This document shows positions 10,969 through 40,279 of a stretch of 64,000 nucleotides of DNA, piece by piece; the first letter of the stretch is position 1, and every line of letters starts with the position of its first letter. The position numbers and the translations under genes were made by a program. The notes under the pieces were generated by a model. It ran no database searches. It was given only the letters and a program-made list of their open reading frames with translations, and was not told the origin of the DNA. The stretch is from contig CM007315.1 of NCBI GenBank assembly GCA_000333855.2, forward strand, positions 1,141,249-1,205,248. Direction: 5' to 3'. The stretch comes from Endotrypanum monterogeii (Eukaryota; Euglenozoa; Kinetoplastea; Trypanosomatida; Trypanosomatidae).

Positions 10969-13900
10969 TCACTGCTCCTCCTGCTCCTCGGTGGGAGAAA
11001 ACTCCTGCGACGGCTGCTGAGTTGGATCGTAGGGCGCGCTCGCGCGTGAACTGGCCGCACCACCGAGGGAACCGAAGCGATCTCCGGTCGATGCGTCATA
11101 AGGATATGGCATACTTCCATGTTCACCAAGCGGGAGTTGAACATCACTACCACCGCCGGCACCAGGCATCGGCATTCCCGAGCTTGTCATAGGTGCGTAG
11201 CCGTATGCCGTGGAGTGGGCGACAGACTGAAGATGATATGAGGACAGCTCGGCATCAAGTGCACTGGTGCTCGGCAGCGCCGACGAGGCCAAGTACGTCG
11301 AGGCGCGAGAGAGGTGATGACTGCTGAGGTAATCATTCGTGTTCGAGGCGGCCAAAGCCGTTCCTATTGTCGTTGGGAGAACACTGCTGAACTGCACCGC
11401 GCTCGCCTCGATCGGGATGCCGCCGTACATGCCAGCGCCACCATGTCTCGGATACACAGAGGAGGTACCGACAGGAAGGGAACTGTTCTCATGCACCGTC
11501 GACGGCGGCCACTGGCCATGTGACCCCTGCAAGGTCGAGGAGCCCGGTGCGACAGACGCCTCTGTGTGGTACACGTTCGAGGTTCGTGTTTCCGTGGCTT
11601 TATCGAGCGGGACAACATGCTGGAGCTTGCCCATATCTAGCATGAGGTCAAAGAGGCCCGTACCAATGCGAGCCTGGTTACCCAGCACGAGATTTGCAGA
11701 CACGCCGCGCACTGGATCCTTCTCACCGAAGGCGGCCGCGGTCATGAGCACCTTCACCGTTTCCTCAAATGAGCACCGCATCAGCGGCCCCGATGTCTCG
11801 CTTCGATTGATGCCCGTGCGGCTGACCGCCATCAGGTAGCCGCGCTGGCACATGGTGTCGACCAGGATGGTGTAGTGCCTGTAGTTGATATTGAGCCCGT
11901 AGGCGAGGTACGCCTCGCGCAGCTCAGACAGCAGCTTGCCCCGCGCCGCCTCGATTCCGAGCACCGTCACCACCTCGGGGATCTTGTTGCTACTGGTCTG
12001 CGAGAAATCGATAATGTTCTTCCCCTCATTGTTCACGACGCCGACGAATATACGCTGAAGCGCTGTGCCTTCCGTATCCACCATCCAACTCGACTCGTTT
12101 TTGATCCCGCCTGTCTCGGGGTCAACGCGAAACGTGTTTCCCTCTTTGAGCAGAGTCTTCTTGATGCCGGGAATACCGCGCAGGTGAACGCTCTGGAGAA
12201 GCTGCGCAACCGCCTTCGTCAGCGCGGGCACCGAGTCCGCCCCCGTGCACTTGCGCGGGCGTAGCCGCACGATGCGCTGGCCGTCATTCTCCATGTTTGC
12301 CTGGACCGTGTAGCTGTCATCCACCTGGCGGATGGCACTCTTCACATCTTTCATGTTGAGTCGCTTGTCGTTAAAAAGATCGTTGTCGAGGATGAGCCGT
12401 GCAATAAAAGGTGACGGTGGCTGCTCGGCATCTTGCTCGTCCTCCTCCTCATTCATGACGGCCTGCTCCCACCGGAGCATTTCTTCATCCTCGGCAACAA
12501 CTGTGTGACGTGTGTCAGGGTCATAGATGATCTGCACAGTCGTTGTGATGTTTGCCAGTGTGCAGTATTCAATGAACTGCTGCGCCTCCTGCGCCTTGTT
12601 GCGCTTCTGATACTCGCGAATAAGACACACGGAAACGCTCGCGTTGCGTTGGTTTTTGCTCACATTTAACAGCTCGAGCAGCCGCGGTACGCCGAGGGTC
12701 ACGTTTTTGGACGAAATACCGGCATTGTGGAAGGTATTGAGGGTCATCTGAGTTGCCGGCTCCCCGCAGGACTGTGCGGCGATCGCCCCGATGATCTCGC
12801 CTGGTGTGATGAGTGACTGCTGGTACTTGGTTCGGATCTCCTTTAACAAGTACTCAAACGCCTTATCGTTCAATCTGTACTCCTTCAGCACACGTTTGGA
12901 TCCGAGAATCTGGCGCAAGTGAATCCCAAAAAGCGTCAAGGCCCTCTCCACGCGCTGCTGGCTGAGCAAGTTCGTGAAGCGGCCGCTGTATTCCTTATGA
13001 TAGGATGGAAACAGCTGCACGATATCCTCCTGCAGCTGCCGCACGCGGTCGATGACCGTGATGGGGTTGAGGTTCGACACCTGACTGCGCTTACCCATAG
13101 TCGTACGCGCGTTCTGAATAAGCCGCGCAACGTTCACGGGCAGGTTCATCTTGAGCTTGTTCTTGTCCTCCATGTCAATGACGAGGCGCGAGGTTGCGCG
13201 GTCTTTCATCAGCTGCTCGAACTCCCCCTGGAGCTTCAACACGCTTTGCGGGTCGCGAAGGAGAGAGTCGCGCACAAAAGGATCCATATAGTGACCGCCC
13301 ATGTTTTCTGAAAAGATTCCCTCGTCATTGTACTCGTAGCGGTATTTATCTGACATCTCGCAGTTCGTCATGTGCGGGATCGGGAAGGCCTGGTTGCCCT
13401 CAATGCGGGCTCCGTCCAGACCATCCTCGCCGTATGCGAGCTGAATGAGTTCTTGATTCGCATTTCGCACCGTTCCATCGTACGACGCGTGCACGTCCTC
13501 CAACGCCTTGACAAGTTTTCGCTGAAGATACCCGGTATCGGACGTCTTGACGGCTGTGTCGATGAGCCCCTCACGCCCGGCCATGGTGTGGAAGTAGAAC
13601 TCGTGTGGCTGCAGCCCTTCAACGTACCCGCGGGTGGCCATGCCACGAGACGTTTCCCCGTAGTCGTCCAACATGAAATGGGGCAGAGTGCGGCGACGAA
13701 ATCCAAACGGGATGCGACTGCCGGCGACGTTCTGCTGCCCAACAAACACGGCGATCTGACAAATATTCAGATCACTGCCTTTGCTACCAGCCTCAATCAT
13801 CACCTTAAAGCTATTCGTGCGGCGCACGTTACTCAGCGCCTTCTTCGCCGCCTCCTCACGGCACTTGTTCAACGCACTGTTCACGTCCGCCTCGAAGGAC

Positions 13901-15972
13901 TGCAACAGCGACATACCAGCCTTTCGGGTCAGCTTACCGTTGTTGGCGGCAGCGCCAATTTTTTCCACGGACTGACGTGTCTTGTGCAGCACGTTGTTCA
14001 TCTCCCTGAGCGTCGTCGCATCCGCCACTGTATCCTGCACGCCGACTGAAAAGGCAAAGCAGTAGTTGAAGTATGTCGTGATGCGCTGCACGCCGTTGAT
14101 AAACTTAGCTACCTCGTCTGACCCACGCTCGTTGAATATCACGTGAATCAGCGACCCAGGGGCGGCGCCGACGACACCCTTCGTGATGGCGCCGACCAGC
14201 AGCTGGCCGCGCTGTATCATGATTTTCTTGTCGTTGTGGGGAAAAGGTGGCTTGTCGTACGGAGAGGCGGGGTGGTTCACCTCGGGAAGAATCAGCGAGA
14301 AGATCTGCTTTCCCGTCCACAAGGGACGCGGCGCGAGGATGGCCGGGATGGGCAACTCCCACAGATCCAACCAAAGTGCAACGCTCTGAATAAAATATTT
14401 ATCAACAAAGGTATCCTTGTCGGTGAGACGGTAGCTCCCGAGCAAGCTGTCTTGCACAATACCCATGCACGGCGCCGACTTGTTGGGCGACACAAAGTTC
14501 TTTGGCACCATCATCATCTCAATGAGCTCCGCCTTCGTGAGGAGCGATTGTGGCACGTGGAGGTTCATTTCGTCGCCGTCAAAGTCAGCGTTGTACGGAG
14601 TGGTGCAGGAGAGGTTAAGGCGAAATGTGTTGTAGTTGAGCACCCGCACGCGGTGCCCCATCATACTCATGCGGTGCAGCGTCGGCTGTCGGTTGAACAG
14701 CACCACGTCTCCATCAATGACGTGACGCTCGACTACGTCGCCAACGTCGAGATTGACGAGGCTGCGGTCCTTCACGAGCGCCAGCTTTGTTACGTTCCCG
14801 TTCGGCCGGATGATGTAGTTCGCCGAGGGATATGTGGTGCGCTGCACAAACTCCGTCAGTCGCTTCTTGTTGATCACGTTTACGCGCTCGGGGAAAGTCA
14901 ACGTCATGGCCACAGAGACGGGTACGCCGACCTCATCGACGTCGATGTTCGGATCGCCGGTGATGACAGTACGCGCTGAAAAATCGACGCGCTTGCCCAT
15001 CAAATTTCCACGCAGACGACCGTACTTTCCCTTCAGCCGCTCAGTGAGCGACTTGAGCTTCTTAGTGTCCCCCACCTTGGCGGGTTTGTAGAAGGTGGAC
15101 GCGTTGTTGAAGAACGTGGCCACGTGTTCTTGCAAGAGTGCACGCGAGCGGTCCACAGCGGCCTTGACACCGGACTCCTTGTCCTTCCGCAGCTGAATGT
15201 TGCGCTTCACGATGGACATGATTTGATGGGTGAGCTCATCATCCGACTTGGCAGACCCGAAGGAGACAGCAGGGCGAACTTGAGGTGGAGGAATGGGCAG
15301 CACCGTGAGAATTAAGTCGCGAGGGTGGCAAAAACGGGGATCGAAGCCCATAACGAGGGCGTCGCTGTCTGAGACGCGGTCCAGCACCTGCCTCGCGTTA
15401 TCTGCGTGCCAGACGTAATCTTGTTCCTCCTGTGTAACTTTGATCTGCAGGCCCGGGTAGATGCCAAGAAAACGACCGATACGTGGCTGGCGCCCCTTTC
15501 CCTCACAGCCCTGGATGTCCTTGCTGCGCTTACAGACGCTGCCACAGAGCTTGGCGACCATGCGCAGGCGGTTCAGACCCTGCAGGTGCGCCACCTTCTT
15601 CAGCTCCGAGGGATCGTTGGTGTCCATCAAAAGTGAGCCGCAGTACTTGCAGACACACTTCAACGCGATCAGCACAACATCAAAAACATTTATGTTGAAG
15701 ATTGGCTCGGCCAACTCCACGTAGCCGAAGTGCCCCGGACACTCCGGGTGCTTCAAACCGCAGGTCTCACAGCTGTACTCGAAATCGGTGGTACCCATTC
15801 GCAGATCGTTGATGCCGCCCCGCACTGGTTGACCGTGCTCGTACGACTTGGCGTGCTCGATGAGGCATTTGGCGTAAGCTTTGATTTGAGGCTCTTTGAA
15901 CACCTCAAACTGAACGTCGTGCACCTTCTGCAGCGGCATCTGCGAAGGTGGGAGAGGTGCGCCGCCGGACAT
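10969..15972 (-). CDS. RPB1: RNA polymerase II largest subunit (RPB1)
   Basis: This 1667-residue protein is the largest, catalytic subunit of nuclear RNA polymerase II. The N-terminal zinc clamp has C68, C71, C78 and H81 (CETCGLKHPECPGH). The active-site magnesium loop NADFDGDEMN has Asp at 463, 465 and 467. The bridge-helix region (EFYFHTMAGREGLIDTAVKT) and trigger loop (GEPATQMTLNTFHNAG) are intact. Pol II rather than Pol III or I is shown by KNVTLGVPRLLELLNVSKN after the trigger loop, GSLIHVIF, and GFRRRTLPHFMLDDYG. The last ~220 residues form a tail rich in Ser, Tyr, Pro and Gly without the YSPTSPS heptad, as known for trypanosomatid RPB1. I placed the start at the ATG at 15972. The open frame runs 15 codons further upstream but begins at a non-ATG codon and encodes only basic residues from an A-rich leader. 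Confidence 0.95.
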   Translation of the reverse strand: MSGGAPLPPSQMPLQKVHDVQFEVFKEPQIKAYAKCLIEHAKSYEHGQPVRGGINDLRMGTTDFEYSCETCGLKHPECPGHFGYVELAEPIFNINVFDVVLIALKCVCKYCGSLLMDTNDPSELKKVAHLQGLNRLRMVAKLCGSVCKRSKDIQGCEGKGRQPRIGRFLGIYPGLQIKVTQEEQDYVWHADNARQVLDRVSDSDALVMGFDPRFCHPRDLILTVLPIPPPQVRPAVSFGSAKSDDELTHQIMSIVKRNIQLRKDKESGVKAAVDRSRALLQEHVATFFNNASTFYKPAKVGDTKKLKSLTERLKGKYGRLRGNLMGKRVDFSARTVITGDPNIDVDEVGVPVSVAMTLTFPERVNVINKKRLTEFVQRTTYPSANYIIRPNGNVTKLALVKDRSLVNLDVGDVVERHVIDGDVVLFNRQPTLHRMSMMGHRVRVLNYNTFRLNLSCTTPYNADFDGDEMNLHVPQSLLTKAELIEMMMVPKNFVSPNKSAPCMGIVQDSLLGSYRLTDKDTFVDKYFIQSVALWLDLWELPIPAILAPRPLWTGKQIFSLILPEVNHPASPYDKPPFPHNDKKIMIQRGQLLVGAITKGVVGAAPGSLIHVIFNERGSDEVAKFINGVQRITTYFNYCFAFSVGVQDTVADATTLREMNNVLHKTRQSVEKIGAAANNGKLTRKAGMSLLQSFEADVNSALNKCREEAAKKALSNVRRTNSFKVMIEAGSKGSDLNICQIAVFVGQQNVAGSRIPFGFRRRTLPHFMLDDYGETSRGMATRGYVEGLQPHEFYFHTMAGREGLIDTAVKTSDTGYLQRKLVKALEDVHASYDGTVRNANQELIQLAYGEDGLDGARIEGNQAFPIPHMTNCEMSDKYRYEYNDEGIFSENMGGHYMDPFVRDSLLRDPQSVLKLQGEFEQLMKDRATSRLVIDMEDKNKLKMNLPVNVARLIQNARTTMGKRSQVSNLNPITVIDRVRQLQEDIVQLFPSYHKEYSGRFTNLLSQQRVERALTLFGIHLRQILGSKRVLKEYRLNDKAFEYLLKEIRTKYQQSLITPGEIIGAIAAQSCGEPATQMTLNTFHNAGISSKNVTLGVPRLLELLNVSKNQRNASVSVCLIREYQKRNKAQEAQQFIEYCTLANITTTVQIIYDPDTRHTVVAEDEEMLRWEQAVMNEEEDEQDAEQPPSPFIARLILDNDLFNDKRLNMKDVKSAIRQVDDSYTVQANMENDGQRIVRLRPRKCTGADSVPALTKAVAQLLQSVHLRGIPGIKKTLLKEGNTFRVDPETGGIKNESSWMVDTEGTALQRIFVGVVNNEGKNIIDFSQTSSNKIPEVVTVLGIEAARGKLLSELREAYLAYGLNINYRHYTILVDTMCQRGYLMAVSRTGINRSETSGPLMRCSFEETVKVLMTAAAFGEKDPVRGVSANLVLGNQARIGTGLFDLMLDMGKLQHVVPLDKATETRTSNVYHTEASVAPGSSTLQGSHGQWPPSTVHENSSLPVGTSSVYPRHGGAGMYGGIPIEASAVQFSSVLPTTIGTALAASNTNDYLSSHHLSRASTYLASSALPSTSALDAELSSYHLQSVAHSTAYGYAPMTSSGMPMPGAGGGSDVQLPLGEHGSMPYPYDASTGDRFGSLGGAASSRASAPYDPTQQPSQEFSPTEEQEEQ

Positions 15973-17146
15973 CTTTTTTTTTTTTCTTGTTTTCAAAAAT
16001 GTCTTTCTGTTCTTCAAGGAGAGTGTCAGTGATCACACGATGGAAAAAAAAAAAAAAGGTAGCGAGATGAACAATGGTGCAGCGAAGTACTTCACAGAAA
16101 GAAAAAAAAGAGTCAGCGGGTGTGTATTTAATAATTTCTCAAATGAAATGCATCACACACACACACACACACACACACAGAGAGAGACGCACACGCGCGC
16201 GATGATGATGTATCTATATATAATTTTTTTTTTTTATTATAGTGTGTCTTCCTCTGTAGAGTGACTCTCTCTTCCCCACCGACGCTGCTTTAGCACACCT
16301 TTGCAAAAAATAATAATTGAGATCAAGGCGGTCTCTATGAGTTTGGGCCGCCTTGGTGACCCACCCAGAGAACACGAGTGGCAGCCGTGTCGCTTGCCAG
16401 ACAAACAAAACAAATCACTGAGTAAACGTGGTATACGAAAAGAGAGGACATACAAAGAAACACACACACATATTTATATTTATATATTTATATATATTTA
16501 TATATTTATATATTTATATATATTTATATATTTATATATTTATATATTTATATATTTATATACATATATACATATATATATATACATATATTTATACAGG
16601 TGCGTGATCCCCCCCCCCGGCAGTCGTCGAAGATGTGAACCGCAAACGTGAATTCATGTGAAGAAAAGACGGGAAAACGGAGGACAGATACGGCAACGAG
16701 AGATGTCACGAAGAAATTGACCGACATCCAGATGGGGCGTGGGCGTGGGTGGGTGGAAGTACGGTGCACATGGATGACTTGGAGCTGTGATTGCCTCATC
16801 ACATCCCTTCAAAGTCATATTATTCGTCAGGAGCACAAGAAAGCTCTAGTAGCCAACGTGCGTAGACTAATCATATGATGTAGAGTTCATAAAGATACAA
16901 GAAATAAGAGAAAGCACGCCGCGACACAGAGAGATCGCAGAACAAAGTGTATCGACTATCTATATTATATTTATATATATTTATATATATATTCACTGCG
17001 TATGTGTGAGGGAAAGAATAGCTCAGGACATCGATCGAGGTATCGCACGACGGCTATGCAGCGTACCCCAGAACCTACTCTACATCTCCATCCGAACACG
17101 CGCACAGACACACACACGCATCTTTCCCTACGGTAGCACTGGAGAA
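15973..17146. other. Intergenic region between the fluoride channel and RPB1
   Basis: No gene is supported. A 14-nt poly-A run near 16044-16057 is a poly-T tract for the minus-strand transcript and may direct trans-splicing of RPB1. The rest holds a (CA)n tract at about 16154-16179 and the TATATTTA minisatellite at 16471-16597. Confidence 0.6.
16471..16597. repeat. TATATTTA-type AT minisatellite
   Basis: About 125 bp built from alternating units of TATATTTA and TATATATATTTA, giving pure A/T DNA with a regular 8- and 12-bp pattern, ending in TATACA variants. It is longer and more structured than the simple (TA)n tracts elsewhere in the window. A shorter run of the same kind lies near 16961-16993. 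Confidence 0.85.
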
Positions 17147-18283
17147 TCAGTTCATGGAGCGGTGATAATTTTGGGGCCGCCCAATGCCAGCTATCAACAG
17201 GCTGACGCCTACCGTTATCAGTGCATAGATGTAGGCAGGTAAAATTCTTCCTCCGCGGTAGAAGTGAACAATCTCATTGACAAGAGAGGAGACGGTGGAC
17301 AGAGCGCCACAGATGCCCTGCTGCACCACCACATACCACTCGTTGGAGATGTGCGTAAGCTCCATGTTAAGCATAATGATGGCGAGCAGCACACCGAGAA
17401 TGTTGGCAACCAGCGTACCCAGTGGGAACTGGGCCAGATACGCCTTCTTATTAAGAAAAATGGATAAAAGAAAACGAGTCACCGCGCCTGCAGGAGCAAC
17501 CACCACCGTGCGTACGCTGTCGGTTGAGATGTCTACAATATTTCCCTTGTTGATCTGCACCTGGACAAGAAGCGGTGCGAGGATGGAGGCAAGCACCAAA
17601 AGAAAAAAACAAACTGTATCGATAATGCGCAACACAGATGGGTGCGCGGACCACGTTTCCCAGGGACACCCAATGAGATACGCGCAGCACCACCGCACAC
17701 CACGCCCGCAGTCGCCGCCCCACAGGAAAAAAACAAAAGGCATTGTAGCACCGAGGAGAAGGTGCTCGAGGGCCTCGGCAGCCGTGCTCTGAGACATCAG
17801 CGCCACCACCCATGCACTAAACGTCGTAAAGCTTCCTAAGAAACCAACGCACAGAGAACGGCAGACGAGGGGAAGCGTGGGCTCGGGCGGGAGTACCGTC
17901 ACAGCGAACCCCATCAAACAACTCCCGAGAGTGTTGGGCATGAGGTAGCTGTACTTGGCAAAAAATAAACTCTTCGTGAAGGTCTTCTGTGAGACGACAC
18001 GGGCTGCATTTCCGCCAACCCCAGATGCAGCCACGGCCAGACACGAGACTAATAGCAGAACATGCGGAGGCCATCGCGCCGTGTACGCGGTCGCTTCCAA
18101 CGACGCTGGTGGCCGTGGAGACGCACCTGTACAACTGACCTCCTGCCCGCCTCCGATAGCTGAGCCATCCGGAACCTCCACGTCATCAGGAGCGCTTTTA
18201 GGACAACGGCCATTGAGCGGAGCAGTGGGTGACAATGCCTTTGGTATGGCAACATCTGGGGACGATATTCCTCCGGTCTCCAT
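17147..18283 (-). CDS. FEX: Two-domain fluoride export channel (FEX/CrcB family)
   Basis: This 378-residue membrane protein is a fused-duplicate fluoride channel, the eukaryotic FEX form of bacterial CrcB/Fluc, expected to export fluoride across the plasma membrane. A ~70-residue soluble N-terminus precedes the first CrcB repeat (GGNAAR near 90-95, PNTLGS 116-121, GFLGSFTTFS 147-156). A linking membrane helix inverts the topology. The second repeat has GAVTRF (266-271), LGTLVANILG (288-297) and GICGALSTVSS (323-333). The second-repeat GxxGxxSTxSS motif has Ser-Thr-Val in place of Thr-Thr-Phe, a departure from the pore Phe seen in the first repeat; asymmetry between halves is usual in FEX proteins. 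The open frame upstream begins at GTG, so I chose the ATG at 18283, which lies 26 nt after a strong pyrimidine tract and AG. Confidence 0.88.
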   Translation of the reverse strand: METGGISSPDVAIPKALSPTAPLNGRCPKSAPDDVEVPDGSAIGGGQEVSCTGASPRPPASLEATAYTARWPPHVLLLVSCLAVAASGVGGNAARVVSQKTFTKSLFFAKYSYLMPNTLGSCLMGFAVTVLPPEPTLPLVCRSLCVGFLGSFTTFSAWVVALMSQSTAAEALEHLLLGATMPFVFFLWGGDCGRGVRWCCAYLIGCPWETWSAHPSVLRIIDTVCFFLLVLASILAPLLVQVQINKGNIVDISTDSVRTVVVAPAGAVTRFLLSIFLNKKAYLAQFPLGTLVANILGVLLAIIMLNMELTHISNEWYVVVQQGICGALSTVSSLVNEIVHFYRGGRILPAYIYALITVGVSLLIAGIGRPQNYHRSMN

Positions 18284-18308
18284 CGCATCTGCACCACACA
18301 CCTCGCGC

Positions 18309-20559: not shown

Positions 20560-21654
20560 TCAATCCTCCAGCACGAAGTCCTCTAGGTCGAGCAATGGCA
20601 CGAGTTGCTTCACACTGCATATAAGAGACTCATCGACACAGAGAAATGCGCCGTAGTTGTTGAACTCACCACAGTAGTTCGGAGCGGAGAAGACAGTGAG
20701 CAGCCTACGCCTTGCAAAGAATTTATATCCCTCTTCCGCCACCTGATGCGCGCGGCAGATAAGGTCGAGGTCCATCGCCTGCGTAAAATGAACCACCACA
20801 TCCTCGCCGAACGTACACGAGACGCCACGGTCGTTCTCACCAAATCCGCTGATGGAGTCATCGGCAGGGTCCGACCAGAGCAAATCACAGATGAGGCCGC
20901 TATCCGGCACGTCCGATGGCCGGAGGATGCGACGAATTTGATCGATGCTGTGCAGCTCCGGACTGAGGCCCCCGTGCATGCAAAGAATGCGTCCGTCGAC
21001 GAGACCGGCCACTGGCATGCAGTTAAAGGTGTCGGTGAAGAGCTTCCAGAGCTTGACGCTATACCGGCGCTTGCACTCGTCGAAGAAACCGTAGATGCGA
21101 TTGATACTGCTGCTCTCGTGGTTCCCACGGAGGAGAAAAAAGTTTTGGGGAAATAACAGCTTATATGCGAAGAGCAGACAGACGGTCTCCAAGGACTGCT
21201 CCCCGCGGTCAACGTAGTCCCCGAGAAAAATGTAGTTGCTCTCGGGGGGGTATCCGCCCAGCTCGAACAGGCGCAACAAATCACTGTACTGACCGTGCAC
21301 ATCACCGCAGAGGTTCACCGGGGCCTTTATTTCGATCAGCATCGGTTGCGACATGAAAAGCTGCCTCGACTCCATAACCAGGTAGACGACCTCCTCCTCC
21401 GTCATCTCCTCATCCGAGAAATTCGAAGGGCCCCCGATGCGACCACCGTTTCTGAGTTGAGGATAACCGGCAGAGTCGAGCTCGCCGACTTTGAGGGCCG
21501 CAGCCGCTGTTTCCGCCTCGAAGGCCTGGAGGCGTGACTGCCTTACATAGGAAGAGGGAGCACTACTTGTTTCTCTTTTGGGTGCAGCCTTGTTGTGAAC
21601 TGGGCTGAGCAGCAACTTGTCAATAATGACCTCTAACTTCGAGCGTACCACCAT
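20560..21654 (-). CDS. PP1-like serine/threonine protein phosphatase
   Basis: This 364-residue protein is a metallophosphatase of the PPP family, closest in pattern to PP1. All metal and catalytic motifs are present: GDVHGQ (117-122), GDYVDRG (145-151), RGNHE (176-180), and CHGG-type [19 protein letters not shown] and SAPNYCGEF follow. It differs from canonical PP1 in several ways. The residue after RGNHE is Ser rather than Cys, and the [13 protein letters not shown] loop reads FNNYG. Roughly 60 extra residues (about 20-80) are inserted in the N-terminal region before the catalytic domain, and the C-terminus ends early in an acidic LEDFVLED. The enzyme should be active; the insertion and changed surface loops suggest different regulatory partners. 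PP1 isoforms are usual in several copies in trypanosomatids. Confidence 0.9.
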
Positions 21655-22908: not shown

Positions 22909-24465
22909 CTACATTTTCTCCCCAGGTGTCCAACTCTTTACAGAGACTCCATCCACCACGTCCGGGGGCAACGCGCTGCGACCGACGAGCATCGCTGCGC
23001 AGTCTATCAGCCCTGCCACGAGCGAAGGGTACGCAGGATTGTGCTTCAGCATCGTGTACACGGACTCCTTGTTTCGGATTGGCAAGGAGGCCACCTCTAC
23101 GACAGATCCAGCGTGCGGCCCCACAGCGCGTACGCCGAGGATTCTCTTCTCACGATTATTGGACACAATCATCTTCACAAAACCATCCTTTGCTCCCATT
23201 ACGATGGAGCGCATCAGGTGCTTATTCTCAATCTTTGCAACAAGGTAGCCGATACCCTCCTCACGGCACTGCTGCTCATTGAGGCCAATGGCTGCAACCT
23301 CGTTCTCCAAAAACATGTTGGTGGCAATATTAGTAAGGACCGTCGGACTAACCGCCAGCTTGGGAGCGGTGCCAAACATGCTGTCGATCACCGCCCGCCC
23401 GGCCGTTAGGGCGGTGCCCGCCGTCCGCTGCAGCCCTGTGGCGTCACCGATGCAGTAGATGTGCTTGTACGGTTTGCATCGACTGTAGAAATCGCACTGA
23501 AGCCTCCCGTTTTCGATCTGCATCTTCGTATTTTCCAAGCCAAGAGTTTCGAGGTTTGGCCGGCGTCCGACTGCCACCATCGCCCGCTCGACGTTGTAGG
23601 TCTCGATTTCGCCAGTGCAAACATTCCGCACCGAGTACTGGCAGTCCGCCTCACCCGCCTCCAAGTCAAAGAGTCGGCAATCATGGTGAATGACGACACC
23701 GCGGCGGATGAGGTTACGCTGTACATACATCGCCACGTCTTCGTCCTCGTTCGGTAAAATGCGGGCGGCCTTGTCCACCAGGTACACCTTGGTGCGCCCC
23801 AACTTGGCATACATCGACGCCACCTCGCACCCCGTTGCCCCTGCACCCACCACGACCATACTCGACGGTATGGAGAGACGAAAGAGATCGGTGGAGTTCA
23901 CGATGCGGGTGCGGTCACACTTGGCTAACACGTGGCCGCGCGGGTTGGAGCCAGTGGCAATGATAATGTGATCGGCCTGTATCGAGCGATACTCACCAGA
24001 CCCCTCGGTGTGGATGTCAACTTCGTTGGGACTGGCGAACGCTGCCTTTCCCTCAATAAGCTTCACCCCGGTTGCCTTCAGCAAAGCACGATATTCGCGC
24101 TCCTTCTCAACGCACGTTTTCTGGAGAAGTTGTGTGATACGCTCGCTCGGGATGCCGCTGACCATACGATGGACTTCAGCCGGGTCGAGCAATTCCTTAG
24201 AAAAATCCGGGCCACTCAGGGAAGCCGCGAAGTCGGCGATTTCCCAAAGCATAGTGGACGGCACGGTGCCGCTCCACAGGTCCGTGCCACCGACGTGGCG
24301 AGCCTCAATGATACAGACCGATTTCCCGTAGTCGACGGCGCGCATCGCCGCCGCGATGCCCCCAGGCCCCCCTCCGATGATGCAAACATCAACTCGTGGA
24401 AACGCGGCGGCGCTCCGCAGCACGGGAAAGGGGACATTAAAACGCACCGAAGACCTGAGAAACAT
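22909..24465 (-). CDS. E3-like flavoprotein lacking redox cysteines (copy 1)
   Basis: This 518-residue protein has the full architecture of dihydrolipoamide dehydrogenase: a mitochondrial-type basic N-terminus (MFLRSSVRF), an FAD-binding GGGPGG (31-36) followed by E54, a central NAD-binding GAGATGCE, the second FAD motif CIGDATG, and a C-terminal interface domain. The active-site GGTCLNVGC of true E3 enzymes is GGTDLWSGT here, so both disulfide cysteines are replaced (Asp62, Thr67). At the C-terminus the HPTxxE catalytic His/Glu motif reads NPAYPS. It can probably bind FAD and a nicotinamide cofactor but cannot reduce a disulfide by the standard mechanism. Such genes are labelled acetoin dehydrogenase E3-like in trypanosomatids; that name should not be read as activity. 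It is the upstream-transcribed neighbour of the PP1-like gene and a tandem paralogue of the gene at 25915. Confidence 0.88.
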   Translation of the reverse strand: MFLRSSVRFNVPFPVLRSAAAFPRVDVCIIGGGPGGIAAAMRAVDYGKSVCIIEARHVGGTDLWSGTVPSTMLWEIADFAASLSGPDFSKELLDPAEVHRMVSGIPSERITQLLQKTCVEKEREYRALLKATGVKLIEGKAAFASPNEVDIHTEGSGEYRSIQADHIIIATGSNPRGHVLAKCDRTRIVNSTDLFRLSIPSSMVVVGAGATGCEVASMYAKLGRTKVYLVDKAARILPNEDEDVAMYVQRNLIRRGVVIHHDCRLFDLEAGEADCQYSVRNVCTGEIETYNVERAMVAVGRRPNLETLGLENTKMQIENGRLQCDFYSRCKPYKHIYCIGDATGLQRTAGTALTAGRAVIDSMFGTAPKLAVSPTVLTNIATNMFLENEVAAIGLNEQQCREEGIGYLVAKIENKHLMRSIVMGAKDGFVKMIVSNNREKRILGVRAVGPHAGSVVEVASLPIRNKESVYTMLKHNPAYPSLVAGLIDCAAMLVGRSALPPDVVDGVSVKSWTPGEKM

Positions 24466-25817
24466 CTTTTTTGTTGATACTTACATACACAAATACATAT
24501 ATATATATATATATATATGTATTTGTATATATATCTTGTCTGAGTGTGGTTGGTGACTAGTGAATGGAAAGGAAGAAACAAAAATGTTTTGAAAAAAAAA
24601 GGGAAACAAGGGGAGCGGTGGATGCTGCGAGATATAGAAAAAAAGAGAAATGGTCACAGCATTCAAAGGAGCCCAGGAAGGAGGAGCAGAACGGCTATAA
24701 GTATGAGGGGGGGGGGGGCCTACTCTGCTCTCTGCCCCCTGTGTTGCCCAGGATCCCGTCTGGCAAGCAGGCAGCAAAAAGGGAGGGGAGAGAAGGAGAG
24801 GGGAACACCAACAAACAAACAAACAAAAAGCAAACAACACTCAATGTATGAGCTACAACGAAAATGGGGGACGGGGAAGAGGAGAATTTGGGAGGCAATT
24901 TCAGGTAAGTTTTTTTGTTTTTTTTTTTGTTGTGTGTGTGGGGCCTGGACGATATTCTCGGGGCCTTCAAGGGCACCCAAATGGATTACCCCTTTTTGTG
25001 TATTTCCTCGGCCCCTTGAACGGTGCCGTGCAAACACATTTGTGCAGAGCCCAGCAGTGCAGGGCTAGACGAACATTAGCTCATTGTGTATTGCAAGGCG
25101 TCCGTGCAAACGCCTTTTTGATGTGAACTCAATGGATCGAGCACAGCGTCTGCTCAAAGCTCCAGGTACCCCTTCTGATTCATGGAGTGACCCCTCCGCC
25201 TCCTCTCGACAGCTGCTTCTGCTGTTCTGGGTGCCGTCACGTGGAGCGTGTCTCAAAGTTGCCTGGGCCCCCCCCCCTACAGAACAGTAGATGGACAACG
25301 CCACATGAGGTGTGCTTGGGCAGTATAGATCCTTTCATCATCCCGTACGTAATACAGACATGTCCGCCATTGAAAATCACCTCGACACAACGCGTTCCAG
25401 AAGTTGGCTGCTGTCGCCAACATGAATATACAGCTCAGACTACACTACGCCGCAGATCATCCGTCCTATCCACACGCGGAAGTGACTCGGCCTCAGCAGG
25501 TGAAGATAGACCGTTATGGCCTCCGTACACGCTCGCAGCATTGAGGGCCCTCCCCCGCCCTTTCTACCTGACAGCCCTCCACAATTTGAAGATGCACCGT
25601 TGCTCCTCCCCCTACTCAGACATGGAAAAAAAAAAAAGACGGGACTGGTGAAGGAGGATACGGGGAAAAAACAATCACCGCCACCCCCACCCCTGTTGTA
25701 CCAGAGAAACGGAGGGGGGAGGTAAGAGGAATAAGAGGAGTCGACATGAGCAAGATTATGACCCCGAGGTCGATTGCGAATGTGTTTGCATACATGCAAC
25801 TGGAGTACCATCCTCGA

Positions 25818-25851
<34 letters not shown>

Positions 25852-25914
25852 CATCGTAGCAGGGGATGCCCCACAGCCGTCCGCGTTTACGGCTCATACC
25901 TGCCTCAGACAGGA
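24466..25914. other. Spacer between the two E3-like genes
   Basis: No gene is supported. It holds a (TA)n tract at about 24496-24533, poly-A and poly-G runs, and a (CA)n tract at about 25820-25850. The part from about 25000 to 25600 is compositionally balanced and lies just downstream of the second E3-like stop codon, where a degenerate 3'-UTR retroposon could sit; I could not confirm one. Confidence 0.55.
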
Positions 25915-27558
25915 TTAATTGGGCCCAACGCCGGTGCCCTTACCTTTGTAAACCACTCCCCTGCCCATATCTGTCGGAATCCATTTCGTGAGCTTGACGC
26001 CGCACGCCGTCTTCGCATGCGGGTGTGCCGGGCGGTCGAGGATGCAGCGCAAACACTCCTGAAAGGCCTGAGAAACAGCCGGATATGCGGTCAGACGCCC
26101 CGCAAGGTCGAAGACTGTCTGGCGATTTTGGATGGCTAGTGAAGCAATATCCACGAGGGTGCTCGCATTCATGCCCACCGCCCGCACGCCGAGAATGCGC
26201 TGCTCTGGATCGTTGGTGACAATAATCTTTACGAAGCCTTGAGTGTTAGCAGCAGCCACAGCACGGCTCACGACCTCGTAACTGTAACGGGCCGCAATAT
26301 AAGCAATGCCTTTCTTCCGGCACTGCGACTCGTTGTACCCGACAGAGGCGACAGCGCGACTCAGGAAGGCAATGCTAGACATCGTCTCTGTCAAGCTCGG
26401 CACGACCCTCGGCGTTGTGCCGTAGATGTAGTCCACGGCGAGCTTTGCCTGTGTTTCGCCCATACTGACCAGCTGCATACGCGTAGCAGCATCACCAACA
26501 GCGAAAATGTGCGGTGTCCCGATACACTGGCCGAACTCATTCACATGTATGTGACTGCCGCGCGTCTTGAGGGTGGTGTTCTCGATACCGAGGTCGGAGT
26601 AGTCCGGAACACGACCCACCGAGATGAGCGCGCGTTCCACCTGGAAGGTTGTCAGCTTCCGCGTGGTACGATCCATTATAGTGTACTGGACGCCGGAGTG
26701 CGGCGTGGGGTTTCCCGGATGCCGCGCCAACGCCTCCTCGTCCGTCTCCTCCCACGGCTGCATATCGTACAGGTCCGAGTTGTGGTGAACGACCACACCA
26801 GCGCGGGTCATGCCCTCTGCAATCATCTGCACAATGTCTGGGTCTTCCGATGGGAGAATGTGCGAGGCCTTATCGATGATCGATACCTTCGTCTTGCCAA
26901 GACCACCAATGATGTTGGCGAACTCGCAGCCGATGACACCAGCCCCGACGATCACCAAACTCTTCGGCAGCGGTGCTTGCATGATGTGATCGGAGGTCAT
27001 AACCAGCTTTCCGTCGGCTTCCACGAAGGGGTGCGCTCGTGGCTTTGACCCCGTAGCGATGATAAAATAGTCTGCCGTGATGCTTCGGTAGACCTTTGTC
27101 AGTCGGTTGTGGCATTGGATCTCGCTGTTGCTGCTGAAGGACGCCTTGCCAAAGACGAGCTCCACGTTCGGTGAAGCCGTGAGTGCTGACCGGATCTGCT
27201 CCTCGCGGATGTGACTGACTGTTCCCATTGATCGCCGCATCTTCGCCTCGTCCATTTCAAAGTAGTCGTCGAGACTCACGCCGTAGAGGCGTTTGGCCGC
27301 CTTACCACGGAGCTTAGACATCGCATTCGAGTACTCCCACATCGTCTTGGACTGCAACGCACCGTTCCACAAATCACAGCCGCCAATTCGTGTCTTCTCA
27401 ACGATGCAAACACGCTTGTTGTAGTCAGCCGCTCGAAGTGCCGCAGCAACGCCGGCAGGGCCACTGCCAATAACGCAAACATCGAAGTGCGTCTTGTCCT
27501 GCGAGGCAGCTGTCCAAGCCCGAGGGCGGTTGAAGGTGCGGAAGGTGAGACGCAGCAT
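25915..27558 (-). CDS. E3-like flavoprotein lacking redox cysteines (copy 2)
   Basis: This 547-residue protein is a tandem paralogue of the 22909-24465 product. After a mitochondrial-type N-terminus (MLRLTFRTFNRPRAW) come FAD-binding GSGPAG (31-36), E54, NAD-type GAGVIGCE, and AVGDAATRM. The disulfide motif is GGCDLWNGA, so the two active-site cysteines are Asp62 and Ala67. Although one Cys lies at position 61, it is offset by one and has no partner. The C-terminal HPTxxE is YPAVSQ. Both paralogues therefore share a G-G-x-D-L-W-x-G motif in place of the redox site, with identical spacing. The supplied longest frame begins 32 codons earlier, but that stretch is Cys/Val/Phe-rich and upstream pyrimidine-derived; the ATG at 27558 aligns exactly with copy 1. 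Confidence 0.88.
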   Translation of the reverse strand: MLRLTFRTFNRPRAWTAASQDKTHFDVCVIGSGPAGVAAALRAADYNKRVCIVEKTRIGGCDLWNGALQSKTMWEYSNAMSKLRGKAAKRLYGVSLDDYFEMDEAKMRRSMGTVSHIREEQIRSALTASPNVELVFGKASFSSNSEIQCHNRLTKVYRSITADYFIIATGSKPRAHPFVEADGKLVMTSDHIMQAPLPKSLVIVGAGVIGCEFANIIGGLGKTKVSIIDKASHILPSEDPDIVQMIAEGMTRAGVVVHHNSDLYDMQPWEETDEEALARHPGNPTPHSGVQYTIMDRTTRKLTTFQVERALISVGRVPDYSDLGIENTTLKTRGSHIHVNEFGQCIGTPHIFAVGDAATRMQLVSMGETQAKLAVDYIYGTTPRVVPSLTETMSSIAFLSRAVASVGYNESQCRKKGIAYIAARYSYEVVSRAVAAANTQGFVKIIVTNDPEQRILGVRAVGMNASTLVDIASLAIQNRQTVFDLAGRLTAYPAVSQAFQECLRCILDRPAHPHAKTACGVKLTKWIPTDMGRGVVYKGKGTGVGPN

Positions 27559-31641: not shown

Positions 31642-33351
31642 TTAGCCAGTGGATTCTTGAGCGTCGTTCGCGGTGAAGTCATAGCCGCTTTCAGCATTCA
31701 GGGAATCCGATAGGAGCCGCGTGCCTTCCTCACTCGCATTCTTCTCATCAGATAAACCAAGTAACGTTTCACTCATCTTTTTCGCGGCGCTGAGAGCCCG
31801 TGAGCGACGTTCTGCGAGGCTCCGTTTGTTTTCTGCGCGTCTCGTGGTGCTAGGGCAGAGGCTGCCCGACCCATCGGAGGGGTGTAAGCGACTAAAAGCC
31901 GCCTGCACATTCTCGAGAAGGTGTTCATCCTCGCCGCTGCTGTCATCGCTGCGGCCAGATCGATGGTATCTGGAGACGGTGGTATACCGTGGAATATTCT
32001 GAGAGAAACTAGGTCGCCTGTCTGAGGAAGCGCCCGCCTGCTCACTTCTGCGTCGGCGGTTAAACCGACAAGACGCCTGTGAGACGCAGTCCGACGGCCT
32101 TGACGAGAGAAGGGCGCCCTGTAGTGAGGGCACGCCCCCGGTGCCACTGATGCTCATGCCAGGCCGTAGGAGAATACTCTTGGGGGAGGGGGACGAATTT
32201 AAAGGAGCAGCAGCCACGGCGGGGGCCATCAACAAGGAGAGACTTCCCCCGGCATCCTCATGGTCACCAGACTTGTCGCTGTTTTCGTTGCCATCAAAGG
32301 CGACAAAACCCTCGAACAAATCATTTTGCTTTAACGGGTCCAATGGAGCGTCCTCGATGGACTGCGACAGAGAAGATGTGGCACGAGGAAGACGCAGCAG
32401 TACTGTCGGCAGCAGACCGCAGACTTGCGGGCTTATTTTTGAAGATGGAGATTTCTTGTCAACACCGGCAGAAGTGGGGTTCAGCGAGCTGTGCAAGCGA
32501 AGGTGGTTGGGCGGAGTGAGTGGGATGCCCTCCGACACCTTCGCGCCTGGCGAGCTCCTCCCCACCTTATTCTGGTTTCCGTGGGCACTCAATAGAGGCG
32601 ATGTTGTCCCCTGCAGCTCAGTATCATCCACATCACTACTCAAGAAACGAACGCTGCCGCGGCGAGGCATGGGCACCATCACTGCTGATATGTTCTGCAG
32701 GGACGCCAGCCTCTCTCTGCTCAGCTGGGGATTCGGTTGCGATGGTGAGTTCGAGTCACTGCTGAAGCTGCCATGCTGCAGGATGCCGCCCACCTGACAC
32801 GCGCCAACAGGGGTGCGGGCACTACCAACTTGGCGCATCAGTCCATTCGCGGTTGGCGATTCATTTGTTTGGTCATCGAGACAAAACAAACCTGAAGAAA
32901 TACCCGGCGAACACAAAAAACTTGGGTTGTCGCTGCGCCGTGTACTCGTGAAACAAGGGTCGAATGATAAGCGGTGAGTCAAAACATATTCGGGCTTCGT
33001 CGAAGGCACCCCGTGTGCGGCGCCGACGTGCCCCTGGTTCCTCTCTCCAGCTTGCACGCACGTGCTGGGGGAGCTCTCCAGGCCGTCGTGGTCTACACAC
33101 ACCGCGTCCCTTGGGGAGTTGGGGGGAGACTCGTATACCTCTCTCTTGTTTTGGCCAGAAACCGCGGGGGGTGCAGCTGGAAATGTGTCCCTCCTCCGAA
33201 CCCCCCGCAAAGTTGGAGTCGCTGAGGCAAACTCAGCCGGCACACCTTTTCTCTGCATCGTCGTGGGCCGCTTCTCTGACCTCCTCTCGTGTGAAACTGT
33301 TTTGGAATCCGCTGCTGCAGTGGGATTTGGCCGAGAAAAGCAGAAGCCCAT
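31642..33351 (-). CDS. Hypothetical Ser-rich protein with an acylation-type N-terminus
   Basis: I do not recognise this 569-residue protein. It begins MGFCFSRP: Gly2 with Ser6 fits the N-myristoylation consensus and Cys4 could be palmitoylated, so it may be a dually acylated, membrane-anchored protein. The rest is dominated by Ser, Pro, Arg and Asn with little predicted order, several RRxS-type basic phosphosite motifs (RRGSV, RRPS), and an acidic Asp/Glu patch near the middle. There is no signal peptide or membrane helix. The start is an ATG followed at once by the acylation motif, which supports it. The upstream flank has a (GTT)n tract on the minus strand and no AG close to the ATG, so the splice acceptor is probably upstream of that repeat. 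Disordered, Ser-rich proteins of this kind are common in trypanosomatids and evolve quickly. Confidence 0.75.
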   Translation of the reverse strand: MGFCFSRPNPTAAADSKTVSHERRSEKRPTTMQRKGVPAEFASATPTLRGVRRRDTFPAAPPAVSGQNKREVYESPPNSPRDAVCVDHDGLESSPSTCVQAGERNQGHVGAAHGVPSTKPEYVLTHRLSFDPCFTSTRRSDNPSFLCSPGISSGLFCLDDQTNESPTANGLMRQVGSARTPVGACQVGGILQHGSFSSDSNSPSQPNPQLSRERLASLQNISAVMVPMPRRGSVRFLSSDVDDTELQGTTSPLLSAHGNQNKVGRSSPGAKVSEGIPLTPPNHLRLHSSLNPTSAGVDKKSPSSKISPQVCGLLPTVLLRLPRATSSLSQSIEDAPLDPLKQNDLFEGFVAFDGNENSDKSGDHEDAGGSLSLLMAPAVAAAPLNSSPSPKSILLRPGMSISGTGGVPSLQGALLSSRPSDCVSQASCRFNRRRRSEQAGASSDRRPSFSQNIPRYTTVSRYHRSGRSDDSSGEDEHLLENVQAAFSRLHPSDGSGSLCPSTTRRAENKRSLAERRSRALSAAKKMSETLLGLSDEKNASEEGTRLLSDSLNAESGYDFTANDAQESTG

Positions 33352-38356: not shown

Positions 38357-40279
38357 TCATAAGCCGAAGTGGTCAGGAGCCTGTGAGAGGAACCGCTGCT
38401 CCAGGGATGGGAGCCCCATCTGGTGACGCCACCGCCCCTCCGGTGACAGAATTCGCTGGGCAACTGGGTGCGGGCTGACACCGCCGCTCATCACACCCGT
38501 TTCCACGACGCCGGCCGGTCGACTGGGATACGGTAAGGCCCTCGCCCCGCTCTCGCCGCCAGTGTTAAAGCCGAGTCTATTGAGCGCTTCATAGCTCATT
38601 GCACCGCGAGTTTCGCGTGCGACAGCGCCCCCTCGCACAGGTGGGCGAGCATCACTGTAGCGAAAAGGGTCTTCGGTGCCCACAACCGCACTGAAGGTTT
38701 CCGGTATGGTATGAGGGGTGTGCGGCGACGGCGGTGGGTCACCGGGAGCCTCACATCCCAAAAATACCCAATGTTGTTCACCGAGAGCAGTTGATGCGTG
38801 AGAAGAGACTGCAGTGACGACATCCACGTCGATTGCGACCTCGTCGTCCGCCTCCTGACCGTCCGAATCATCGAGGCCAGATATATCAGGCGAGGCATCC
38901 AGTGGCGTGTAGTAGACAAGATTGTGGAACCACTGAACGACAGGTTTGTTCTTCAGTGCCTCTGCCGCCTCCTCCTCTACCACTGCGCTGCCATACCACA
39001 GACGGCGTACCTTCGACCGGATAAACGCCTTCACCAGAGAATAGACGGCAGAGACACCTTTCTTTGACGGCAGTGGAGGCGGAGCAATCGGTATAACCGG
39101 TGTCTCTAAAAGACCTAGACCAGGAAGGACTCGCTGATCACGGGGGATGAGGTTCCCTTCCCTGGTGTGGATGGGAACCATGCACACAGGTTGCGGGCCG
39201 CGCAATACCGGCGGCCGGCCAGTCCACGGAACTATGCCGTTCACAACGTATGGATGGTTGTTGAAGGTGTTAATGTGGGCTCTGTCACCAGCGACAGGCG
39301 GTGGCGGGCGCTTCGGGCTGCGGGGGTCGGGGGGCGCGAGTGGGTTGGAGCTGCTGTCACGCCCCACGAAAGAAACACCTCTCTGTTTGGACTTATCCAG
39401 GGATCCTGTCCTGCTTATCGAGCACCTCTCCTGTTCCCGAGAAGGATTTGAAAAACGTGGGCCGTCGACCAAAGCCATCGAATTATTTTCCTCTGCATTG
39501 TGTCCCTCCAGCTCATCTGACCGTTTGGGTCGTCTGCGCCGCCACGGAGAATAGGGGCAGAAAAAAAAAAGAAGAACAGCGACCCCGCAGAAAGTCGCAC
39601 TACCAAGAATGCTTCCGGCTATGATCAGCGCTAATTCCCCGGCAGATAAACCCGTGGCTTCTGAGTCGGCAGGAGCTTCTGTGGTCGGCGTCGGCGTCGT
39701 CGGTGTCGGTGGTGGCGTCGGCGGTGTCGTCGGTGGTAGCGTCGGGTCCTCTGTAACCGGTGGTGTGGTGGAAGTTTCTGAGCTGCTCGACGAAGACGTC
39801 ATCTCTGACAGGGATGACTCCAGCTCAGATGACCCATCCTCTGGAGGGGACTCTGTCGGCGGTGGTGTGGTAGAAGTTTCTGAGCTGCTCGACGAAGACG
39901 TCATCTCTGACAGGGATGACTCCAGCTCCATTGGCCCATCATCCGTCGTGCCTTCAGCGGTGAAAGCAGCCGGTGCTATTGCGCGGCTTGGTGTTGGGGT
40001 GATGCTATGTACCACTCTAAGTTCAAATGAATTCTCAGACAGAGCAGAAAACGCGACGCGCCCATACACACCCGCATCGCCCAGAGGCTGCTCGAGGGAT
40101 AGCGAAAACGTCGCTGAAGCATGACCGTCGCGCCCAGGGAGAAGTCGAGAGTCTCCAGGAGACTTAACAGGACTGTGCACCACCTCCGTGGGAAGCAATG
40201 TTGTCCTCGTCGAAGTCTGCCCAACTGCTGCACACTGAAGTAGCAGCAGAATTACCAGAGCGGCCCATACACACCGCAT
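38357..40279 (-). CDS. Type I membrane protein with a mucin-like stalk
   Basis: I do not recognise this 640-residue protein, but its layout is clear. A hydrophobic signal peptide (MRCVWAALVILLLLQCAAVG) is followed by a short luminal/extracellular part of about 100 residues. A Ser/Thr/Pro stalk comes next, including two nearly identical copies of ELESSLSEMTSSSSSSETS and a TPPTP-type run, with high potential for O-glycosylation or phosphoglycan-like modification. A single membrane span (LALIIAGSILGSATFCGVAVLLFFF) is followed by a stop-transfer block WRRRRPKR. A long cytoplasmic tail of about 370 residues is Pro-rich. The longest frame starts 28 codons earlier, but the ATG at 40279 places the signal peptide at the N-terminus, so I prefer it. 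It could be a surface or endosomal receptor; no family is assigned. Confidence 0.8.
   Translation of the reverse strand: MRCVWAALVILLLLQCAAVGQTSTRTTLLPTEVVHSPVKSPGDSRLLPGRDGHASATFSLSLEQPLGDAGVYGRVAFSALSENSFELRVVHSITPTPSRAIAPAAFTAEGTTDDGPMELESSLSEMTSSSSSSETSTTPPPTESPPEDGSSELESSLSEMTSSSSSSETSTTPPVTEDPTLPPTTPPTPPPTPTTPTPTTEAPADSEATGLSAGELALIIAGSILGSATFCGVAVLLFFFCPYSPWRRRRPKRSDELEGHNAEENNSMALVDGPRFSNPSREQERCSISRTGSLDKSKQRGVSFVGRDSSSNPLAPPDPRSPKRPPPPVAGDRAHINTFNNHPYVVNGIVPWTGRPPVLRGPQPVCMVPIHTREGNLIPRDQRVLPGLGLLETPVIPIAPPPLPSKKGVSAVYSLVKAFIRSKVRRLWYGSAVVEEEAAEALKNKPVVQWFHNLVYYTPLDASPDISGLDDSDGQEADDEVAIDVDVVTAVSSHASTALGEQHWVFLGCEAPGDPPPSPHTPHTIPETFSAVVGTEDPFRYSDARPPVRGGAVARETRGAMSYEALNRLGFNTGGESGARALPYPSRPAGVVETGVMSGGVSPHPVAQRILSPEGRWRHQMGLPSLEQRFLSQAPDHFGL
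39755..39935 (-). repeat. Tandem coding repeat in the Ser/Thr stalk
   Basis: Two DNA copies encode ELESSLSEMTSSSSSSETS followed by a Thr/Pro spacer; they lie at roughly 39776-39832 and 39875-39931 and are close to identical at base level. This is the signature of recent unit duplication and suggests copy-number variation between strains. Confidence 0.8.

Follow-up and report, generated by a model that had tools for sequence, protein, structure and literature searches.

A tandem pair of E3-like flavoproteins from Endotrypanum monterogeii belongs to a conserved kinetoplastid family without the redox disulfide

A stretch of 64,000 nucleotides of the Endotrypanum monterogeii genome (contig CM007315.1, positions 1,141,249 to 1,205,248; hereafter the window, meaning the whole stretch) carries two neighbouring genes, P0001 and P0002, whose products resemble dihydrolipoamide dehydrogenase (E3). 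Their features are collected in Table 1. Both open reading frames (ORFs) were open, of the expected length and preceded by in-frame stops; the initial annotation had left room for one copy being a pseudogene, and both proved intact. The Pfam domains Pyr_redox_2, Pyr_redox and Pyr_redox_dim all scored above cut-off in the two proteins. An E3-like fold was given by fold matches and by confident AlphaFold2 models (mean predicted local distance difference test score of 91.6 for P0001 and 91.1 for P0002). The GxGxxG motifs for flavin adenine dinucleotide (FAD; residues 31-36) and nicotinamide adenine dinucleotide (NAD; 207-212 in P0001, 205-210 in P0002) were retained, as were Glu54, the GD Asp (341 and 356, respectively) and Glu214 (Glu212 in P0002). 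Neither protein contains the C-x4-C motif next to the flavin or the C-terminal catalytic His-Glu that mark membership in E3. The redox site reads G-G-T-C-L-N-V-G-C in the true E3 of the same genome (L004), unlike in the pair (Table 1). At the C-terminus of the pair, Tyr and either Ala or Gln occupy the positions of the true-E3 His and Glu. Alignment with L004 thus confirmed, in both ORFs, the first description of the pair as proteins that keep the cofactor motifs and replace the redox cysteines and the catalytic His and Glu.

Table 1. Features of the pair, the unlinked paralogue and other ORFs of the window (positions are those of the window unless another locus is named).
Feature	Position	Strand	Description
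P0001	22909-24465	minus	518 aa, disulfide-less E3-like flavoprotein, clade C
P0001 residues 59-67, G-G-T-D-L-W-S-G-T	24265..24291	minus	Asp62/Thr67 at the two redox-cysteine positions
P0001 Thr71	24253..24255	minus	replaces Lys, which is present in 125/130 distinct clade members with a letter
P0001 residues 479-484, Y-P-S-L-V-A	23014..23031	minus	Tyr479/Ala484 at the catalytic His/Glu positions
P0002	25915-27558	minus	547 aa, disulfide-less E3-like flavoprotein, clade B
P0002 residues 59-67, G-G-C-D-L-W-N-G-A	27358..27384	minus	Asp62/Ala67 at the two redox-cysteine positions
P0002 residues 492-497, Y-P-A-V-S-Q	26068..26085	minus	Tyr492/Gln497 at the catalytic His/Glu positions
L002, GCVL-1-type protein	L002:1480-3006 (own genome, C36)		unlinked to the pair; without both redox cysteines and His-Glu
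920-aa ORF	3580-6342	minus	TerD domain (Pfam, 61.8 bits)
Calreticulin	8454-9644	minus	
RNA polymerase largest subunit	10969-16017	minus	
384-aa ORF	17147-18301	minus	two CrcB stretches (Pfam)
Calcineurin-like Ser/Thr phosphatase	20560-21654	minus	
569-aa ORF	31642-33351	minus	no Pfam match at E 0.001
668-aa ORF	38357-40363	minus	no Pfam match at E 0.001
1325-aa ORF	49271-53248	minus	no Pfam match at E 0.001

The pair was compared with named enzyme families using NCBIfam models. With the E3 model (lipoamide_DH, TIGR01350; cut-off 408.8 bits), the pair scored 279.1 and 292.8, and L004 scored 560.6. The same cut-off was missed by L002 (292.4) and by P0031 (314.8), a protein named GCVL-1 by its source. 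With the model of the LpdA type (NF005883; cut-off 479), the pair scored 237.5 and 208.2, and the LpdA-type protein P0042 scored 725.4. Membership of the pair in the E3 or LpdA families was excluded by these cut-offs. The pair thus differs from E3 in having neither redox disulfide nor catalytic His and in forming a separate clade, whereas the fold and the FAD, NAD and dimerisation domains are common to both. No closer non-E3 family was found by VIA-align among the matches listed.

The conservation of the altered site was followed in a FastTree phylogeny of 342 proteins (the window pair and the listed matches) and five loci of the same genome, from which the active-site columns had been left out. 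About 8000 candidates were scored in each protein search, and the best 120 of 554, 3047 and 6947 matches were listed. The P0001-type trypanosome proteins P0162, P0167, P0168, P0172, P0173 and P0175 were found by one search and not listed by another, so absences carry little weight. This tree, blind to the motif, placed the pair in one clade (support 1.0) with 131 distinct members. The first Cys position of this clade was occupied by Asp in 129 members and Glu in one, the remaining one being a fragment without letters. Trp64 was present in 124 members, replaced by Phe in three, His in one and Tyr in one (P0170, P0171, P0179, P0180 and P0187), two having no letter. The second Cys position held Ala (89), Thr (37), Ser (3) or Cys (1), with one member lacking a letter, position 71 held Lys (125), Gln (3) or Thr (2), and position 74 held Trp (128) or Tyr (2). 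Tyr stood at the His position in 130 members and Phe in one. The exceptions were P0017, with one Cys at the second site, P0023, with Glu and Phe, and the fragment P0188. In the database model of P0009 (L. major, clade C), which reads G-G-A-D-L-G-G, the Trp of D-L-W is missing. Asp and Tyr were common to Leishmania, Trypanosoma, Phytomonas, Strigomonas and a Neobodo transcript.

As judged from this alignment, the altered site of the pair is not the product of random decay, Asp and Trp being near fixed in a clade defined without them; the initial annotation had argued the same, and the fractions bear it out (Asp 129/130, Trp64 124/129, Tyr 130/131). The motif proved to be conserved across genera in the form D-x-W, and it was found not to be special to the tandem pair, since it is shared by the GCVL-1 type (L002). 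The C-terminal His and Glu are both lost in the pair, but loss of the Glu does not extend to the whole family, in which this position is variable (Gln 96, Glu 11, Ser 10, His 5, others 9) and Glu is thus retained in 11/131 members. The cofactor sites were nearly universal: FAD glycines in 129/129 members with letters, Glu54 in 130/130, the GD Asp and the NAD glycines each in 131, and Glu214 in 130. This retention indicates selection for cofactor binding. Strand beta-2 of the NAD domain ends in an acidic residue in the family (Asp in 74 and Glu in 56 of 130), which points to use of NADH and not NADPH.

The search of the same genome gave at least five matches, namely the pair, L002, one true E3 (L004, on C32) and L005, an apparent trypanothione reductase by motif. 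The trypanosomatid proteins formed three clades, each monophyletic: clade A (30 members, with L002), clade B (35, with P0002) and clade C (29, with P0001). L002 and clade A were named the GCVL-1 type because L002 groups with P0031. This type (the Leishmania 'DLD isoform', for dihydrolipoamide dehydrogenase) belongs to the same family, with the motifs G-G-A-D-F-W-N-G-A-L-Q-S-K and A-Y-P-x-x-x-Q and with Asp, Trp and Tyr in 30/30 members; it differs from the pair in its unlinked locus and shorter N-terminus. On sequence grounds, the pair is two of three paralogues of one kinetoplastid family, of which the GCVL-1 type is the third, and is distinct from the true E3 found. Clades B and C were sisters in the trees. 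Proteins named for Leishmania and for Trypanosoma occur in both, so the duplication that separated B from C predates the split of these genera. A transcript labelled Tbor (P0165), which we take to be from Trypanoplasma borreli, and two metagenome sequences branched just outside B and C in one tree.

The B and C genes were on contigs of the same length, and so most likely on a single contig, in nine cases, and those of P. hertigi have consecutive tags (JKF63_03974 and JKF63_03975). On contigs of at least 12 kb, 9/18 C proteins and 9/16 B proteins were paired; the rest, including P0167 and P0151 of T. brucei, were unpaired, which may reflect database clustering or real moves. For the T. brucei locus, segmental duplication with copy loss, and apparent pseudogenisation of one dihydrolipoamide dehydrogenase copy, are described in passages of an earlier paper (PMC2212663). 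Phytomonas proteins were present in clade A (P0211, P0214) and clade B (P0141, P0144, P0145), and none was in clade C among the listed matches. As for the heterodimer suggested for the two adjacent proteins, an obligate one found no support. Two weak signs spoke against it: the two Phytomonas genomes without a listed P0001 type, and the faster evolution of P0001 than of P0002.

Outside this clade, the nearest relatives were bacterial proteins, mostly with G-G-A-G-x-Y-x-G-A-L-x-S-K and P-H-P-x3-E, annotated as dihydrolipoamide dehydrogenase or NAD(P)/FAD-dependent oxidoreductase. They formed a sister clade (n=129), Bacteroidota where named, although many tree entries were without an organism name. 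As in the pair, Cys was at neither redox position in any of them (129/129). Unlike the kinetoplastid proteins, with Tyr in 130/131, all 129 retained His and Glu. The position of the kinetoplastid Asp was occupied by Gly (125), Ala (3) or Ser (1), that of Trp64 by Tyr in 122/129, and Lys71 and Trp74 were present in 129/129. One member scored 391.3 with the E3 model, near its cut-off. In a genome scan, the best 80 of 570 matches were all from Bacteroidota by title, 65 of them placed in Flavobacteriales, a content biased by the choice of the matches nearest to the query. Both cysteines were absent and His and Glu retained in the 79/79 scanned loci with letters; relatives from Fluviicola or Crocinitomix (L062, L070) keep His-Glu. 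By score, no PDB entry was closer to the bacterial group than true E3s were.

The joint kinetoplastid and bacterial clade was supported in all trees, with the active-site columns left out (0.93 with FastTree; 100 and 100/99.9 in the two other trees). Support was 100/100 for the kinetoplastid part and, for the bacterial clade alone, 0.48 with FastTree and 95 and 95/94 in the other two trees. Long branches were flagged in the first of these two; the second agreed on the main clades and placed P0024 and P0164 differently. Forcing the kinetoplastid proteins together with true E3s cost 35.9 log units (approximately unbiased (AU) test, p-AU 0.0004), and forcing them with their own E3 alone cost 200.7 log units. 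Descent by decay from the host's own E3 was rejected by the tree and the AU test. Because the sister bacterial family is Cys-less, the simplest account is that loss of the disulfide preceded the origin of the kinetoplastid family. The cysteines were thus probably missing already in the ancestor shared with that family, and not replaced within the pair as had been supposed. Read from the alignment, Asp, Trp and Tyr are changes on the kinetoplastid side. Transfer, if it took place, would have been from a bacterium to kinetoplastids.

That the cofactor sites are kept and the new residues near fixed speaks for an enzyme. The redox role of the pair is probably different from that of E3, as the initial annotation had proposed. 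We give about an even chance to the view that these kinetoplastid proteins form a family of NADH-type FAD proteins that have the E3 fold but no disulfide, and in which the flavin, by analogy, hands electrons directly to a small acceptor. Each subunit would bind FAD and NADH, and NADH would reduce the flavin. The reduced flavin would then pass electrons or a hydride directly, since no disulfide relays electrons, to an acceptor in the former lipoamide pocket, which would be lined by Asp62, Trp64 and the Tyr of the partner subunit. Such a transfer would be as in mycobacterial LpdA (Rv3303c), a quinone reductase. A mitochondrial site for the pair would fit its basic N-termini; for GCVL-1 of L. infantum, passages of PMC11949353, citing an earlier paper, place the protein outside mitochondria.

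Like the pair, the LpdA type has the E3 fold, no cysteines and Tyr for His; both cysteines were absent and Tyr replaced His in 12/12 matches of the NAD(P)H-quinone-dehydrogenase type. According to a passage of PMC2440308, Rv3303c is inactive as a lipoamide dehydrogenase but acts as a quinone reductase and a transhydrogenase. The alignment represented this type by LpdA-type matches; P0042 reads G-G-S-A-V-L-T-D-V-V-P-S-K, unlike the pair.

Several observations weigh against direct electron transfer from the flavin to a small acceptor. In the trees, the kinetoplastid proteins branch apart from the LpdA types, which makes the LpdA-style mechanism an analogy. Among NCBIfam models, lipoamide_DH still gives the pair its highest score, though one below the cut-off. 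Passages of PMC11949353, citing earlier work, state that GCVL-1 acts on the substrate of the true E3 with lower activity. No operon naming an acceptor was found around the bacterial relatives in the 80 loci. A cluster with a CxxCxxCC chelating domain was present in 41/80 of these loci (L006-L085), PF03692 being found in one member tested; of the 63 loci in which the target was located by a strict motif regex (17 were missed), 37 had it immediately upstream, on the opposite strand. A FolD-like cluster, assigned by eye and not by a family search, was present in 26/80. Finally, P0001 is without Lys71 and evolves faster, and constraint on it may be relaxed in this lineage. Its identity to the P. 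hertigi orthologue P0003 was 88%. With P0005 as outgroup, P0001 had 35 changes specific to its lineage against 15 for that orthologue (p 0.0066), and the excess recurred with P0007 (32 v 11) and P0008 (29 v 12) as outgroups. P0002, with 91% identity to its P. hertigi orthologue P0123, showed no such excess (19 v 15, 19 v 18 and 21 v 14), nor did GCVL-1 (14 v 10, 15 v 10 and 11 v 11).

A rival explanation is that the proteins are pseudoenzymes, i.e. FAD-stabilised scaffold or regulatory subunits that would, for example, use the E3 dimer surface to bind other mitochondrial proteins, without turnover. This is unlikely, although the fold and dimer domain remain while the disulfide and catalytic His are gone, and although P0001 has lost Lys71 as well and evolves faster. 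The site is not drifting, with Asp, Trp64, Trp74, Tyr and Glu214 kept in nearly all members, and the retained NAD site would be needless for a pure scaffold. We consider it rather improbable that the proteins are flavin hydride-transfer enzymes of another chemistry (a small-metabolite dehydrogenase or ene-type reductase), with Asp62 and Tyr as new acid-base residues, and not donors to quinone-like acceptors. The two substitutions, Asp for the interchange Cys and Tyr for its His, are polar and almost invariant, and the substrate of the bacterial sister family, with His-Glu but Gly, Ala or Ser for the first Cys, may differ; yet neither sequence nor neighbourhood evidence names a substrate for such a reaction.

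It is very improbable that the proteins are weak lipoamide dehydrogenases using other cysteines or none. The lower GCVL-1 activity on the same substrate (PMC11949353) would fit, as would five other cysteines that nearly all members of the kinetoplastid clade keep and that are less common in true E3s (P0001 numbering: Cys28 127/129, Cys51 129/130, Cys213 119/131, Cys400 129/131, Cys489 130/131). Two of them are near the site in sequence, Cys213 adjoining Glu214 and Cys489 lying ten residues past Tyr; both are also present in 129/129 members of the bacterial sister clade. In E3, Glu214 faces the flavin. A catalytic role for these cysteines is nevertheless unlikely: 129/130 members have no Cys at either redox position (the exception being P0017), and the pair, L002 and P0031 all fall below the lipoamide_DH cut-off. 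The idea that the proteins are decaying E3 copies with inactivating point mutations is scarcely tenable and for the family largely refuted: the product name 'dihydrolipoamide dehydrogenase, point mutation' (in passages of PMC2927427), the pseudogenised T. brucei copy (PMC2212663) and the faster evolution of P0001 would favour it, but the frames are full-length, identity to P. hertigi is high, the same Asp and Tyr recur across genera and the bacterial sister family is itself Cys-less.

Direct transfer from the flavin can be joined to the phylogeny in a broader scenario, which we advance tentatively, as less likely than not. A Bacteroidota-like bacterium would have been the source of a flavoprotein without a disulfide; in kinetoplastids, Asp-x-Trp and a Tyr reaching across from the partner subunit would have remodelled its flavin site. 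Duplication would then have given three paralogues that couple NADH to an acceptor not known to be used elsewhere in the disulfide reductase superfamily. If so, part of the annotated lipoamide and glycine-cleavage machinery of these parasites would be a different enzyme family. Judged by its sequence, the naming of the GCVL-1 type as glycine-cleavage L protein is doubtful. LmjF.31.2650 is presumably one of the pair. In passages of the respective papers, it is listed as an essential lipoamide dehydrogenase (PMC10115950) and, together with Tb927.8.7380, is among the genes included in a Leishmania lateral-transfer study (PMC4711719).

The conserved disulfide-less flavoprotein family is real, and it is not described as such in the literature searched; in the portions of open-licence papers covered, none was found to present the lack of cysteines as characteristic of a family. 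In such portions, GCVL-1 is treated as a DLD isoform and possible backup of the true enzyme (PMC11949353), and 'point mutation' DLDs are ranked as drug targets (PMC2927427), a product name indicating that annotators saw the changed site. In a paper of 2026, proteins of L. infantum labelled AKGDH, AoDH and DLD are classed as DLDs by fold, and the missing cysteines go unmentioned in the passages covered (PMC13282843). By their sequence, the proteins examined cannot run the E3 reaction by the known mechanism, and studies counting them as spare E3s would therefore need re-reading. The family is a conserved group of disulfide-less flavoproteins shared with Bacteroidota, and its reaction can be assayed directly.

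The other ORFs of the window in Table 1 are also on the minus strand. The calreticulin, polymerase and phosphatase ORFs share this strand with the pair, as in one polycistronic unit. Three large ORFs matched no Pfam family at the threshold given. The 920-aa ORF has a domain of TerD, a mainly bacterial family, and the two stretches in the 384-aa ORF belong to CrcB, a fluoride channel family.

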